DNA of 32,663 bases from a virus, in the IMG/VR virus record IMGVR_UViG_3300033553_000164, positions 1 to 32,663 of that record; one strand, written 5' to 3'. Below the pieces are notes generated by a model. It was not told the origin of the DNA and searched no databases. It worked only from the letters and a program-made list of their open reading frames with translations. The position numbers and the translations under genes were made by a program. Of the stretch, positions 8,480 to 13,159 are shown in pieces. Each line of letters opens with the position of its first letter. Position 1 is the first letter of the stretch.

Positions 8480-9241
8480 TCAATCAATTAGTTTCCCGCC
8501 CTTTTTAATATGTTCCATCTGAGCACCTGGCGATAATGCATTGAACGCCTGACGGTTAATAGTTGCGCCGCCGCCTTCTTTTCCGTTATTGACCGCACCA
8601 CCACCGCTGGCATGGCTACCAATCAGTAAAGGCGCGAACGCTTTGTTATTCTCAAACTCTTTTCTCAGGTCATCAATCGACAGCGCGGAAGGCTTACCGT
8701 CTGCGTCCAGCACACGTAGAACAGGTTTGCCCTCATGGATTTCAGTTGTTAACCGGCTTTTAATATGAGGTAGCATCGCATCTGCGCTTCCAGGTATAGA
8801 CATTTCAGCCGCAAGTTTCAACGCCTGCGCTCCGGCGGTCATATCGCTAACCATTTTTTCATAGCCGGTCAATTGGCCTGTCAATTCAGCTTCACGCGCG
8901 GTCAATTTGTCCTGCCAGCTTTTTTCCAATGCTTCAACATCGCCGGATTTCTTAGCCGCTTCTTCTGCTGCGGTACGGGCCAGTTTTTCTTTTTCTTTTA
9001 GGTGCTTTTCAGATTCTTGATGCTTGATTTTGTAACGGTCGAGTTCAGCCTTCATATCTTCAAAGGCTTTCGGGTCGATCGCTGGTGTTTCATTCTCTTT
9101 TGCCGCCGCCGCTGCCGCCGCTGCCGTTTCTTCTGCCGTAGCCTCAGCACCTACGCCCCGATGCAGGGATGGGTTCTGCTTCCAGTAATCAAGCCATTTT
9201 GAACTGTAGTGGTCGGTCGGTTTGTTGATTAGTTTTTGCAA
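8480..9241 (-). CDS. Capsid scaffolding protein
   Basis: A 253-residue protein that is low in aromatic residues and has an Ala/Glu-rich coiled coil about residues 35-125. The end (INRQAFNALSPGAQMEHIKKGG) is the conserved tail of scaffold proteins of P22-like-coat siphoviruses. It lies directly before the coat gene. The start appears to be TTG at 9241, with SD GAGG eight bases upstream and no nearby ATG in frame. It should assemble the procapsid and then leave. Confidence 0.82.
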   Translation of the reverse strand: MQKLINKPTDHYSSKWLDYWKQNPSLHRGVGAEATAEETAAAAAAAAKENETPAIDPKAFEDMKAELDRYKIKHQESEKHLKEKEKLARTAAEEAAKKSGDVEALEKSWQDKLTAREAELTGQLTGYEKMVSDMTAGAQALKLAAEMSIPGSADAMLPHIKSRLTTEIHEGKPVLRVLDADGKPSALSIDDLRKEFENNKAFAPLLIGSHASGGGAVNNGKEGGGATINRQAFNALSPGAQMEHIKKGGKLID

Positions 9242-9252
9242 TTGGTAATCCT

Positions 9253-11349
9253 CTATTTAGGTTCGGGTATATTAGCACGAGAAAAAGCTACAGGCTCGAT
9301 TTCGCGCATTTCTGCAAGTGTAATAGGTTTGAAGTTTCGACCGAGCTGAAGCTCCGCGAAACGTTCTGCTGAAATACCACCGTTTCTCAGTAATTTCCCG
9401 CGAGTAGGTCCCACGATAGAATTCTGTACGGAGGCCGGCTGATTTTTAAGCCAGCTATAATATGTTGTCTTAGCCGATACGGATTCTATCTTACCGCGCT
9501 TGAGCTCGCCATCTTCTAATGTTGGTGGTCTGGCTCGCTGCTGTGCGCCTTTTGATAGTTTGTCGTAAGGTGCGCGCAATATAGGAACTGTTGTAGATCG
9601 ACAGTTATGAACGACAAAGCCATCAGCTAAATACGTTTCATCATCTTTAACAGCAAGATTATATACGTATCCACTGTAATTATGTGCTACACTCTCAGTG
9701 CATGTAGACGCTAACCAAGAGGAATCATTATGGACTTCACCACACTTAACGGCCTTATTATCAATGAACACTACGGACTTGGGAAAAGTCTTAGGCGCAT
9801 CGAAAGGGAGAACGGTCTCAGCAATGACACACTTAGAAAAGGATGTATTCGACATGGAATAACTACTAAGCGTAGAAACCAGTCTATTATTGATAATATG
9901 AAGTTTTGCGATATTCCGTCTGGTGAGTCCCATTGGAGTAAAATACGACCAGACGCTCACGCTAGATGCTGCGCTGAATCTTCCAAAAGAATGAAGGTTT
10001 CTAACCCATCGTTTGATAGGGATACTGTTATTAAAACGAGAGATTCTCTCGCTATAACATTTGCCAAAAACCCTACTGAACACGAAGCTCTTTTTGCATC
10101 TATTCTTGATAATATCGGCGCAGACTACGAAATGCACAAAAGGATTCTTACTTACAACCCCGACTTTATCATGGGAAACACAACTATTGAGATGGATGGC
10201 CGAGGTCATGCCGGCCGCGCCGCTAAAGATGCCATAAGAGACCAGCTCATCTGTGACGCTGGTTTCAATGTTGTGAGAATTAATCAGGACTCTTTGTGGG
10301 ACAAGCGAAGATTCCCTGATACTATCAAGCCCATCAAGTTGCTCAATGTCATAAAACAGTACGTCCCCGCTCTCGACATTTCCAGCCTCGACCCATCCTT
10401 TGTCTCTGGTAAGTACAGGGTGCTCGTTCGTGAGGCTAACACTGGCGCCGAAATTATCTTTTAGCGTCAAAGCTTTCCCGTTGTGCTCTCTGGCCATGAC
10501 TATGTAAACTTGCTTATATCTTCCGGTATGCGTTTTTACATAGTCGCCAACTTTTACGCGCTCAATTTCTATTTGTCCGCGCCTTGTTTCGATCATTGTA
10601 CCAGGTAGACACGCATTGGGATGTGCGGGAGGACGCGGCCCCTCGTTAACGGGGAACGGGTCACTAGATGAAAGGCTGCGGCAAATCGGTGAAGTGTTAC
10701 CGTCAAGGATTGACACCCATTTAACCTTCTCTATCAAATCAGAGTTCGCCGCATAAGTGGCTTCTCTTGCCTGATTAGCCGTATGCTGCAAAGCGGTTCT
10801 TGCAATCATTTCAGCACTTCTGGCGCTAACATCAACAGCCGCCCGCATGTTCCTGATTACTTCGGTGGTGGTTTGGCCTTGCGCCGCACCTATCCTGAGA
10901 ACGTTTGAAACCTGAGTAGCTTCTTTTTTAGTCCAGTCCTTGATATACGCATCCAGCAATTTACCGCCGTCAGCGCCCTTGATTCCTAAAGGGGTGGACA
11001 TTACCGCCGTAGATAGCTGTGTCGCACTGGGTATCGTGTAATTGAAATCAGCAACCACGTTTTGAAGGCTGCGAACCTCGAAGCCGGCCTCGTATTCTGA
11101 AAGCTCTTTAATCTGACTGAGTAGCACCTTCTCATAATCCTGCATGGGCGCTAACAATAGCTTATTGATGGTCTGTAACTGCTTTTCTAGCCGATTGCGT
11201 GACCAGTCCGTGATTAGTTCACCGCCTAATTGTGAACCAATAACTTTTTTCATTTCCAGCAGGAACGGTTCGAATTCCTTAACGTACCCGCTTTTTAACC
11301 TTTCAAGGTGAGCAGTATGGCGCGCGGACTGGTCTTGTAGTTGGGCCAT
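9253..11349 (-). CDS. MuF-like minor head protein interrupted by an intein
   Basis: A 698-residue precursor. The N-extein (residues 1-246) is helical with the MuF-type segment MIARTALQHTANQAREATYAAN and then WVSILDGNTSPICRSLSS and RPPAHPN; the C-extein starts CRSTTVPILRAP at residue 583. Together they form the PPxHPNCRST motif of Mu gpF-like head morphogenesis proteins. The 336-residue insert between N and C is an intein. Removal leaves a head protein of about 362 residues, normal for the family. It lies between portal and scaffold genes, as expected; MuF proteins sit inside the head near the portal. The start ATG at 11349 is coupled to the upstream stop. A separate endonuclease gene lies antisense inside the intein part. 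Confidence 0.92.
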   Translation of the reverse strand: MAQLQDQSARHTAHLERLKSGYVKEFEPFLLEMKKVIGSQLGGELITDWSRNRLEKQLQTINKLLLAPMQDYEKVLLSQIKELSEYEAGFEVRSLQNVVADFNYTIPSATQLSTAVMSTPLGIKGADGGKLLDAYIKDWTKKEATQVSNVLRIGAAQGQTTTEVIRNMRAAVDVSARSAEMIARTALQHTANQAREATYAANSDLIEKVKWVSILDGNTSPICRSLSSSDPFPVNEGPRPPAHPNACLPGTMIETRRGQIEIERVKVGDYVKTHTGRYKQVYIVMAREHNGKALTLKDNFGASVSLTNEHPVLTRDKGWVEAGNVESGDVLFYDIEQLDGLDSIRESSLVPQRVLINSHNIETSVTDELVSYGIFSGAAGMTSAIHLNSCVSHDKVGVVSKNPFVHFVVCADIIKNRCKKSFVFSRVFGKCYSERISRFNNSIPIKRWVRNLHSFGRFSAASSVSVWSYFTPMGLTRRNIAKLHIINNRLVSTLSSYSMSNTSFSKCVIAETVLPFDAPKTFPKSVVFIDNKAVKCGEVHNDSSWLASTCTESVAHNYSGYVYNLAVKDDETYLADGFVVHNCRSTTVPILRAPYDKLSKGAQQRARPPTLEDGELKRGKIESVSAKTTYYSWLKNQPASVQNSIVGPTRGKLLRNGGISAERFAELQLGRNFKPITLAEMREIEPVAFSRANIPEPK
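9685..9722 (+). promoter_or_regulatory. Extended -10 and Shine-Dalgarno for the nested endonuclease
   Basis: TGCTACACT at 9685-9693 looks like an extended -10 (TGnTATAAT with two mismatches); no good -35 is seen. AAGAGG at 9717-9722 is a strong SD seven bases before the ATG at 9730. Both lie within the coding sequence of the intein on the other strand. The SD is clear, the promoter is tentative. Confidence 0.5.
9730..10464 (+). CDS. Vsr/DUF559-like homing endonuclease nested antisense in the intein
   Basis: A 244-residue protein. Residues about 8-46 form a helix-turn-helix-like DNA-binding part (SLRRIERENGLSNDTLRKGC). Residues 114-185 carry a nuclease core of the PD-(D/E)xK type as in Vsr, DUF559 and the EDxHD (I-Bth0305I) group: NPTEHEALF (114-122), YNPDF with D145, IEMDGRGH with E154, D156, H160, then RDQLICDAGFNVVRI. 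The likely role is to cut intein-free MuF genes and so spread the intein. It is the only gene on the plus strand in the late region and lies wholly inside the intein with codon boundaries in register. It has 17 Leu and 17 Ser codons and no TTA, CTA or TCA. Its C-terminal residues 227-234 are complementary to intein block B. A strong SD supports the start. Confidence 0.9.
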   Translation: MDFTTLNGLIINEHYGLGKSLRRIERENGLSNDTLRKGCIRHGITTKRRNQSIIDNMKFCDIPSGESHWSKIRPDAHARCCAESSKRMKVSNPSFDRDTVIKTRDSLAITFAKNPTEHEALFASILDNIGADYEMHKRILTYNPDFIMGNTTIEMDGRGHAGRAAKDAIRDQLICDAGFNVVRINQDSLWDKRRFPDTIKPIKLLNVIKQYVPALDISSLDPSFVSGKYRVLVREANTGAEIIF

Positions 11350-11552
11350 TAATTAATCAACCTTAACTTGGACGACTCACACAGTTTAAAAATATCCTCC
11401 GGATTAGCGAAAACAGTAAATGTTATACTTTTACCTGATTCTGCTTCGTATAATATCTCTTTAGTTTCAAACGCTTCCTTTTCATCTTGAAGCCAAGATT
11501 TTTCTTGCACAGGCATCGCGGTTACACCATTAAATAACAATACTTTTCCCAT
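11349..11552 (-). CDS. Small head-module protein, function unknown
   Basis: A 67-residue protein starting MGKVLLFNGVTAMPV, with AGGGGA upstream of the ATG. It is soluble, with no motif I recognise. It lies between a small membrane protein and the MuF gene; its stop overlaps the MuF start (TAATG). Confidence 0.6.
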   Translation of the reverse strand: MGKVLLFNGVTAMPVQEKSWLQDEKEAFETKEILYEAESGKSITFTVFANPEDIFKLCESSKLRLIN

Positions 11553-11563
11553 GATATTCCCCT

Positions 11564-11737
11564 TTATTTATTTAACTTAAATACCACTAGCGAACCGATA
11601 ACTATACCCATCAACGCAAACCCCATCCCAGATAACTGCTGCAAAACAGGCGATAATTCGCTTAGGTCACAGATATAAATCATAGCAAATGAAAATACTG
11701 CTGCGATTATAATCGGTAAAAATACATTCTTAAACAT
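11564..11737 (-). CDS. Small membrane protein with two hydrophobic helices
   Basis: A 57-residue protein starting MFKNVFLPIIIAAVFSFAM, with a first hydrophobic span about residues 4-22 and a second about 38-53 (FALMGIVIGSLVVF). SD AAAGGGG precedes the ATG. The size and two spans resemble small holin-like or superinfection proteins, but it is far from the lysis genes and I assign no function. Confidence 0.6.
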   Translation of the reverse strand: MFKNVFLPIIIAAVFSFAMIYICDLSELSPVLQQLSGMGFALMGIVIGSLVVFKLNK

Positions 11738-11788
11738 GGTAATCCCCTTTGTTATTGGTCATATATTATAGCCTATAAGCACCTTAAA

Positions 11789-13159
11789 TTATGGTGTTAA
11801 TTCATCGGCCATTTCTTCCAGACTCTTCTCAGCGTCAAAAAATCCACGCGACTGCATGTATTCCACGTATTGGCCAATCGGAACTGAACCCTGAATAAAC
11901 CCAGTCATAATTGCCTGTAATTCTTGGGGTGAGGTTTCAGGACGTACGAAGTCAGTAGATAATTCAACCAATGCCGCCTCACTCGTACCCATGAAACGAC
12001 CGGCAGATGCTAAAGCGGCACTGTACGCCTCTGACACGTTCATAGCAATCATGCTGAGTGGCGAATGCCTTGCCTGTATGTCGCCTGCGGCCTCGGTTGC
12101 TGTTTTAACCGAACCGTTAGGCTGGATAAGCAACGCACCGAGCGCAACCATTAGCTCTACCTTGTCCATCATGGCTACGCGTGAAAGGGGGTCAATATTC
12201 GGCGACGCAAATCCGAACTGACCGCCATCTTCTAGCGTTATTGGGTTCCGACTGCCAACATAAATATTGTTCTCTTTCATGTAATCAAGTCTTGCCTGAC
12301 TAACGCCACTCATCCACGATTGAGGTTGTCCAGCGAAGAAAACCGAGTCCTCCCAGTCTGCTGAGTTTAGAAAGTGCGCAAAGTTAATATCCGTTAACGC
12401 CTGAGCCGGTGGTGAGTCTACATTGTGATCGTTGTTTTCTGAACCGATGAAATGAAACTGTATCGTATCGAATGTTTTGCCGGCGGAATCTTTAGGCACG
12501 TATGATTCGTGAACTTCCCACTCCTTTTTAGCGTTCTTGCGCCATAACCGCTCCGAATAAACATCGTTATCCAAATATAGCTCGCGTATCTGGTCAATTG
12601 ATTCAGTGGTATAGCCATCATCTTTCACATCATCGACAGACTCCTGAATAACAACCAGAGACAACACTATCTGCGCGCCCCGTTGCTTGGTTCGCCAGTT
12701 GATAATCGATTGAGGCTCGATACGGCTGATTGCGGCCACAGCTGTGAGGTTTTGTATATCGGCTCGACTAGCAGGCGCATCACGTTTAGGAAACGAAGGG
12801 TATAAGCCCGCACGGCCAAAGCGAGTGACATCATCGGATGATGCTTTCATTTGCTGATAGAGAGATATTCCAGCACCATCGATATTAGTCATCATGTATT
12901 CAAGCTGGATCTGTAATTCAATACTTGGGGCCTTGCTGAACATTAGACCGAGTAAGCCGGTGATGGTCTGTCTGGTTACCGCATAGAATACAGCCCTTTC
13001 CTTATACGCCTGATTGCGCTCAGCGTTTCCTACGCTTTTATCGCTCGGGTTCAGGGTAGGAATGTATGACTTGAGGTTTTTTAACCGGGTGCAATCGTCA
13101 ATACGTTTCCATATCGGCTGATGCTCTACGTAATCGGGGTGTTTGAAATCTATTGGCAT
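11789..13159 (-). CDS. Portal protein (DUF4055 type)
   Basis: A 456-residue protein. The N-terminal part YKERAVFYAVTRQTITGLLG followed by FSKAPSIE and DGAGISLYQQMK, then FGRAGLYPSFP, matches the DUF4055 family of portals found between terminase and MuF genes. It makes the 12-fold ring at the packaging vertex. The C-terminal part has the usual helical TEAAGDIQARHSPLSMIAMN. SD AGGAT precedes the ATG. It is not clearly truncated. Confidence 0.85.
   Translation of the reverse strand: MPIDFKHPDYVEHQPIWKRIDDCTRLKNLKSYIPTLNPSDKSVGNAERNQAYKERAVFYAVTRQTITGLLGLMFSKAPSIELQIQLEYMMTNIDGAGISLYQQMKASSDDVTRFGRAGLYPSFPKRDAPASRADIQNLTAVAAISRIEPQSIINWRTKQRGAQIVLSLVVIQESVDDVKDDGYTTESIDQIRELYLDNDVYSERLWRKNAKKEWEVHESYVPKDSAGKTFDTIQFHFIGSENNDHNVDSPPAQALTDINFAHFLNSADWEDSVFFAGQPQSWMSGVSQARLDYMKENNIYVGSRNPITLEDGGQFGFASPNIDPLSRVAMMDKVELMVALGALLIQPNGSVKTATEAAGDIQARHSPLSMIAMNVSEAYSAALASAGRFMGTSEAALVELSTDFVRPETSPQELQAIMTGFIQGSVPIGQYVEYMQSRGFFDAEKSLEEMADELTP

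Follow-up and report, generated by a model that had tools for sequence, protein, structure and literature searches.

The MuF-like head morphogenesis gene of a 32,663-base IMG/VR virus record (IMGVR_UViG_3300033553_000164; this whole stretch of DNA is referred to as the window) contains an intein, and inside this intein, on the opposite strand and in codon-on-codon register, lies a nuclease gene. We interpret the element as a mobile intein that carries its homing endonuclease gene on the antisense strand within dual-coded DNA, a reading to which we assign a probability of roughly 0.87. The anatomy of the element, the homologies, the antisense phase, the conservation of two frames, the codon locks, the expression signals of relatives and the intein-free alleles were all determined computationally. 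A first-pass annotation, made from the letters alone, knew of no described example of the layout; it proved to be a widespread class of about 60 lineages.

A contiguous intein in the MuF gene

The MuF gene and its intein are encoded on the minus strand, with the following parts.

9253..11349, minus strand: MuF-like head morphogenesis gene bearing the intein, 698-residue precursor (Phage_Mu_F E 6e-11 in Pfam; phrog_241 head morphogenesis E 3e-102)
10612..11349, minus strand: N-extein, MuF residues 1-246, ending in ..PPAHPNA (from sequence; the matching site is uninterrupted in 323 Guernseyvirinae-type records, with Jersey-like flanks joined)
9604..10611, minus strand: intein, 336 residues, MuF residues 247-582, from Cys1 to His-Asn336, followed by Cys+1 (Intein_splicing/Hint; HINT fold Z 12.8)
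10570..10611, minus strand: intein block A region, CLPGTMIETRRGQI (from sequence; Hint_2 match)
10411..10431, minus strand: intein block B, TNEHPVL, the same codons reading antisense as nuclease KYRVLVR (T307/H310 conservation; reciprocal codon lock in relatives)
9649..9669, minus strand: intein block F, YVYNLAV (no nuclease Shine-Dalgarno sequence or start codon antisense to it in the window, unlike in the larger family B described below)
9604..9627, minus strand: intein block G, ADGFVVHN (from sequence; N582 and C583 conservation)
9253..9603, minus strand: C-extein of MuF, CRSTTVPIL..., stop included (from sequence; phrog_14819 match, residues 618-692)

The insert shows the intein signature of Cys1, TNEHPVL, YVYNLAV, and VVHN followed by Cys+1. 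Pfam found only Hint/intein domains in the MuF frame, Hint_2 (1e-6) above its cut-off and Intein_splicing (4e-8, 33.8 bits) slightly below its cut-off of 35.8, and the nuclease domain is on the opposite strand rather than in the chain. The predicted model of the intein contains a HINT core, with a Z-score of 12.8 to the Mtu RecA intein over about 106 aligned residues. With blocks A, B, F and G, the terminal residues and the HINT fold all present, the insert is an intein, and the MuF gene is a single open reading frame (ORF) of 698 codons that is not split or fractured. In an alignment of 53 host proteins, T307 and C583 were invariant and H310 and N582 nearly so, and splicing blocks B, F and G were conserved throughout. 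The middle of the intein matched no Pfam domain, and its model was of low confidence, with mostly a predicted local distance difference test score (pLDDT) below 50 for residues 96-296.

The antisense nuclease

The following features of the nuclease gene lie on the plus strand.

9730..10464, plus strand: antisense nuclease gene, 244 residues, with a helix-turn-helix (HTH) region and an EDxHD/Vsr-type PD-(D/E)xK domain (DUF559 E 5e-6; I-Bth0305I profile E 1.1e-7; fold Z 8.8)
9730..9864, plus strand: N-terminal HTH region, residues 1-45 (model against HTH DNA-binding domains Z 4-5; HTH_7 in 10/18 relatives)
10072..10371, plus strand: putative catalytic domain, residues 115-214 (E119, Y142, D145 and E154 invariant; predicted model)
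9719..9723, plus strand: Shine-Dalgarno-like GAGGA, 6 nt 5' of the nuclease ATG (from sequence)
9685..9693, plus strand: weak extended -10-like TGcTACACT, 5' of the nuclease (from sequence)

The nuclease ORF lies entirely within the intein, spans 73% of it, and is in codon-on-codon register with intein residues 294 to 50. DUF559 was matched above the Pfam cut-off, and a profile built from 36 aligned relatives matched I-Bth0305I (3r3p, E 1.1e-7), 3hrl (5e-9) and, weakly, Vsr. The predicted model (mean pLDDT 85) gave Z 8.8 to I-Bth0305I and Z 7.1 to Vsr, and a Foldseek E-value of 1.2e-3 to I-Bth0305I, which is thus the nearest fold among endonucleases. Residues E119, Y142, D145 and E154 were invariant in the alignment of 36 nuclease sequences. 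Taken together, the predicted fold and the conserved acidic residues point to a nuclease of the I-Bth0305I/Vsr PD-(D/E)xK type. Toxoplasma and Tetrahymena mitoribosome proteins ranked near I-Bth0305I in the fold comparison; we regard these as distant proteins of the nuclease fold that are irrelevant here.

The first-pass annotation had placed a 336-residue intein with blocks A, B, F and G in the head gene, with a Vsr/DUF559-like ORF of 244 residues wholly inside it in register, and in all of these points, coordinates included, it was right. Its remark that the intein middle resembles no domain agrees with Pfam and the low-confidence model, and finds no support beyond these two.

Occurrence of the layout among phages

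In a tblastn search, the window nuclease matched three Vibrio phages that share its layout and whose nuclease is unannotated. The intein of Escherichia phage Snoke, reached via a MuF search, also has an antisense frame for an HTH-nuclease, and with the Snoke nuclease as query 107 phage records matched. Contig scans added some 80 loci. Clustered at below 60% identity, the nuclease loci formed 56 clusters. At nearly all loci the nuclease is antisense in phase 0, within a long ORF that has block B and the terminal Asn-Cys, and the other antisense phases are typically open only for tens of codons. Approached from the intein side, with the Snoke intein protein as query, the search yielded six more loci (from Gordonia, Mycobacterium, Vibrio and an environmental virus), each with an antisense nuclease, again in phase 0. 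Each of the 53 host proteins has a match to PHROG 15127 'head protein'; Phage_Mu_F is found in 43 of them and Intein_splicing in 44. In public records the nuclease is almost never annotated.

We distinguish two nuclease families: family A, comprising the window-type nucleases (the window, L001-L003 and L022-L024), and the larger family B, comprising the rest. Their mutual identity in the nuclease alignment is 13-23%. The first viral-contig scan with the window nuclease alone found no relative, and a scan of plasmids found none either; an alignment of 13 diverse nucleases was too divergent for contig scanning, so narrower sets were used.

The hosts vary in several respects. In phage fEg-Eco06 (L016 1862-3799) the intein is at another MuF site, before CRARDG, compared with HPN followed by CRST in Snoke. 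The host ORFs of L067, L068, L075, L081, L085, L087 and L095 are very long (1000-1775 residues); a portal domain is present in four of the 53 host proteins, so some of the long hosts probably fuse portal and MuF and carry an intein of this kind. Other domains in the host-protein alignment were ADPrib_exo_Tox (ADP-ribosyltransferase) in two proteins, NUDIX in one and 2'-5' RNA ligase in one.

Both frames are kept open

In phase 0, a stop codon on one strand is TTA, CTA or TCA on the other. All three codons have synonyms, so that both frames can be kept open with Leu and Ser unchanged, and the phase may have become fixed because no other antisense phase always lets stops be avoided by synonymous change, or through a single origin. 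The loci had been collected by nuclease similarity, independent of whether the intein frame was open. Across 57 lineages, antisense-phase stops occurred at none of 15,563 overlap codons, compared with 705 of 25,563 host codons outside the overlap. The window nuclease uses TTA, CTA or TCA at none of its 34 Leu/Ser codons, and given its protein sequence and the codon use of the window, the chance of an open intein frame is about 1e-6. For the most AT-rich lineage the probability was 1e-14, and the product over the 56 clusters was 1e-234. Three loci with a fractured MuF gene (L022-L024, see below) are excluded from the 57 lineages but enter the 56-cluster product at part length, and L106 and L059 were left out of the counts. 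The nuclease of L106 first appeared broken, but it ends normally at the apparent stop. In L059 an indel, perhaps introduced during assembly, disrupts both frames.

Differences between Snoke and STM-ZS at codon positions 1/2/3 numbered 60/23/88 in the nuclease and 57/37/138 in the extein, and nuclease identity exceeded intein-frame identity in all pairs displayed. This pattern indicates that the nuclease is the more constrained frame, yet that its third positions are less free than those of a normal gene. The first-pass annotation had named a broken nuclease frame in an intact intein as evidence that would speak against dual coding. Such a case was seen in a single lineage, L046/L047 (L047 3501-4343), which has one in-frame nuclease stop with the intein frame open over 690 codons, compared with 57 lineages in which both frames are open; judged from its sequence, it is likely an instance of homing-endonuclease decay.

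Reciprocal codon locks

The motifs of each strand are visible in the codon choice of the other. Around its invariant Glu of the catalytic region, the nuclease motif VAVE is encoded by GTC in 36/37, GCC in 45/47, GTG in 46/47 and GAA in 48/54 cases, and in family B these codons read antisense as intein FHGD. FHGD is conserved in the middle of family B inteins opposite nuclease VAVE, for example in L004 (Snoke). In the opposite direction, 48 of 53 lineages encode the Ile/Val of intein block B by ATA or GTA, against an expected 10.9; where it is Ile, it is the rare ATA in 32/32 (expected 7.4). Read antisense, ATA and GTA give the Tyr of the nuclease YRV motif, and only this Tyr explains the use of the rare ATA. 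The block B His is CAC in 47/53 (expected 28). The window obeys the block B lock, its Val being GTA opposite nuclease Tyr229. P-values for the codon locks go down to 1e-27, calculated with kinship ignored for lineages that are less than 60% identical.

These locks bear on the strongest competing explanation, namely that the nuclease is real and the intein frame passively open, with a middle that has no role, selection acting against stops only, and splicing possibly lost. The lower identity of the intein frame compared with the nuclease fits this, as do the mostly low-confidence model of the middle and the three close relatives that dropped it entirely and are now split. Against it, the 53 hosts have conserved blocks B, F and G, the MuF C-extein is still in frame, and in family B the sites that are synonymous for the nuclease are locked to intein FHGD, so that part of the family B intein middle is constrained. 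We therefore consider a passive intein frame unlikely, though it deserves more weight than the other alternatives. The first-pass annotation had seen the middle as a linker. That it is the antisense of the nuclease was borne out, whereas a purely passive linker does not fit the conserved FHGD of family B.

Candidate expression signals within the splicing blocks

The antisense of block F, (G)HVYNL(E/Q), is GAGGTTATAAACATG in most lineages of family B, which makes a candidate Shine-Dalgarno sequence and start codon. The block F His in this family is CAT in 41/44 (expected 18.6, P 1e-12), and the remaining three use CAC, antisense to which is the start codon GTG. The block F Leu is CTC in 35/47 against an expected 8.6 (P 7e-17). 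Family B also has a TATAAT, in many cases with TG before it, on the strand opposite block G (GIITHN) or just inside this block. Scores for this -10 box were higher overall than those of synonymous shuffles (Fisher P 2e-11), with 18 of 52 lineages below 0.05.

Relatives with a fractured MuF gene

L022, L023 and L024 are the closest IMG/VR relatives of the window nuclease. Opposite the N-terminal half of the nuclease, their intein frame contains 10, 5 and 11 stops in gaps of 309, 162 and 228 nt, respectively. MuF-IntN lies upstream, and downstream there is a separate IntC-MuF ORF with its own start codon and a Shine-Dalgarno-like sequence.

L022 3141-5144, L023 3060-5111 and L024 2859-4937: apparent split inteins, MuF fractured into IntN and IntC genes

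By sequence these loci have the fractured-gene arrangement, and they suggest how a contiguous, dual-coded intein could turn into a split one. The link to fractured genes that the first-pass annotation had drawn is, with these three loci, a direct one.

Intein-free alleles and proposed mechanism

When the Jersey-type flanks of the intein were joined and used as query, 323 phage records matched over a single gapless stretch at 77-93% identity, their site being uninterrupted. The Jersey-type relatives of the window intein are in-frame insertions at a conserved site that is uninterrupted in these homologues. Dozens of records of the same Jersey-type group carry the intein, and the occurrence of intein-plus and intein-free records in one group fits homing.

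Splicing, nuclease expression, the nuclease target and homing are predicted from these sequences, and we propose the following scheme. MuF would be translated together with the intein, and the HINT domain, formed by blocks A/B and F/G, would fold together around the insert of about 200 residues. The intein would then excise itself and restore MuF at the conserved HPN(A)|CR(S/C) motif. The opposite strand of the same DNA would be transcribed and translated to give the 244-residue HTH and EDxHD/Vsr-type nuclease. In a mixed infection, this nuclease would cut MuF alleles that lack the intein, at the insertion site or close to it, and repair would copy the intein in.

The nuclease might instead do a job other than intein homing, such as defence or the exclusion of competing phages. 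Related nucleases can take part in phage exclusion, and Acinetobacter phage IME285 (L015 413-2127) has a free-standing relative of the nuclease that lies tail to tail with a MuF gene lacking the intein, near the usual insertion site. We consider this improbable: the nuclease sits inside an intein at a conserved site, the intein is sporadic, the fold is that of EDxHD homing endonucleases, and a search of the defence-system library PADLOC gave no match for the nuclease. Moreover, exclusion and homing are compatible.

That the plus-strand frame is a mere by-product, the intein being the sole gene and codon bias leaving the antisense frame open by chance, has some appeal in GC-rich lineages, where phase-0 antisense is often open, but can practically be dismissed given the homology to EDxHD I-Bth0305I, the invariant E/Y/D/E residues, the better conservation of the nuclease frame, the open-frame probability in AT-rich sequence, the stop counts, and the codon locks with their invariable block B ATA.

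Several observations weigh against a mobile intein with a dual-coded antisense endonuclease gene. In GC-rich lineages log10 P was only -0.3 to -1.5, so open frames alone are not significant there. The P-values for open frames and codons assume independent lineages though the sequences are related (<60% identity), and the expected codon use was derived from short loci. In family A, including the window, the nuclease starts about 60 nt further in, without the block F Shine-Dalgarno and ATG signals or the block G -10 box, the GAGGA and the weak TGcTACACT being all that is seen, and a scan with the sigma-70 consensus found no promoter on the plus strand upstream of the window nuclease. Rfam likewise found nothing on the plus strand upstream of the nuclease or within 8500-12000.

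A broader proposition would be that phage MuF inteins with an antisense homing endonuclease form a class that is large, ancient and hardly annotated, in which the motifs of each strand are written in the synonymous codons of the other, blocks F and G also serve the nuclease as its ribosome-binding site, start codon and promoter, and relaxation of the double constraint gives rise to split inteins, as in L022-L024. For this whole set of claims jointly, we regard the odds as about even.

Relation to known systems

Canonical mobile inteins such as PI-PfuI, PI-PkoII and TliVMA resemble the window element in having a HINT domain, a nuclease segment flanked by the N- and C-terminal splicing blocks, a conserved insertion site and a sporadic presence. 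They differ in that their nuclease is a domain of the intein polypeptide, whereas in the window the complementary strand encodes it as a protein of its own, and what stands in the middle of the intein chain is the nuclease gene translated in antisense. I-Bth0305I (PDB 3r3p), the closest solved endonuclease by profile and fold, is annotated as 'mobile intron protein' and, unlike the window nuclease, has no intein overlap. In fractured genes, split inteins are linked to EDxHD/Vsr-like homing endonucleases (Dassa et al. 2009, as cited in PMC12350094). As far as that citing account describes them, they share with the present loci a nuclease of the same superfamily tied to inteins, and the MuF genes of L022-L024 are likewise split into IntN and IntC; in the window and about 57 lineages the intein is contiguous and the nuclease antisense inside it.

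Two other systems place a nuclease in an alternative frame or strand. The ShiLan element is an out-of-frame HNH nuclease in a phage methylase gene (Arsenault et al. 2025, PMC11855218). Like the window element it is a stop-free in-frame insertion in a phage gene with the nuclease in another frame, but it involves a frame shift on the same strand, another nuclease family (HNH) and no detectable splicing domain (PMC11855218). In nuclear rDNA, homing endonuclease genes are reported to be antisense to group I introns, and so also lie opposite the strand of the splicing element (PMC9548176). Such an intron need not be an ORF, hence there is no dual protein coding, unlike in the window. Our literature search found no contiguous intein with an antisense-coded nuclease, with the most relevant work, Dassa et al. 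2009, known to us only by citation.

The layout packs a splicing part and a mobility enzyme into the same base pairs, one per strand, and has been kept while spreading over many phage groups. Few cases of antisense dual coding combine two recognisable protein families with wide sampling and with evidence from codons in each direction, and this layout is one of them. A possible origin of split inteins is also indicated: after the downstream half has acquired a start of its own, the intein frame across from the nuclease could decay freely, as is seen in the three fractured relatives. Many unrecorded putative homing endonucleases and inteins are present in well-known laboratory-scale phages, such as the Jersey-like and Kagunavirus groups, which makes the idea directly testable.
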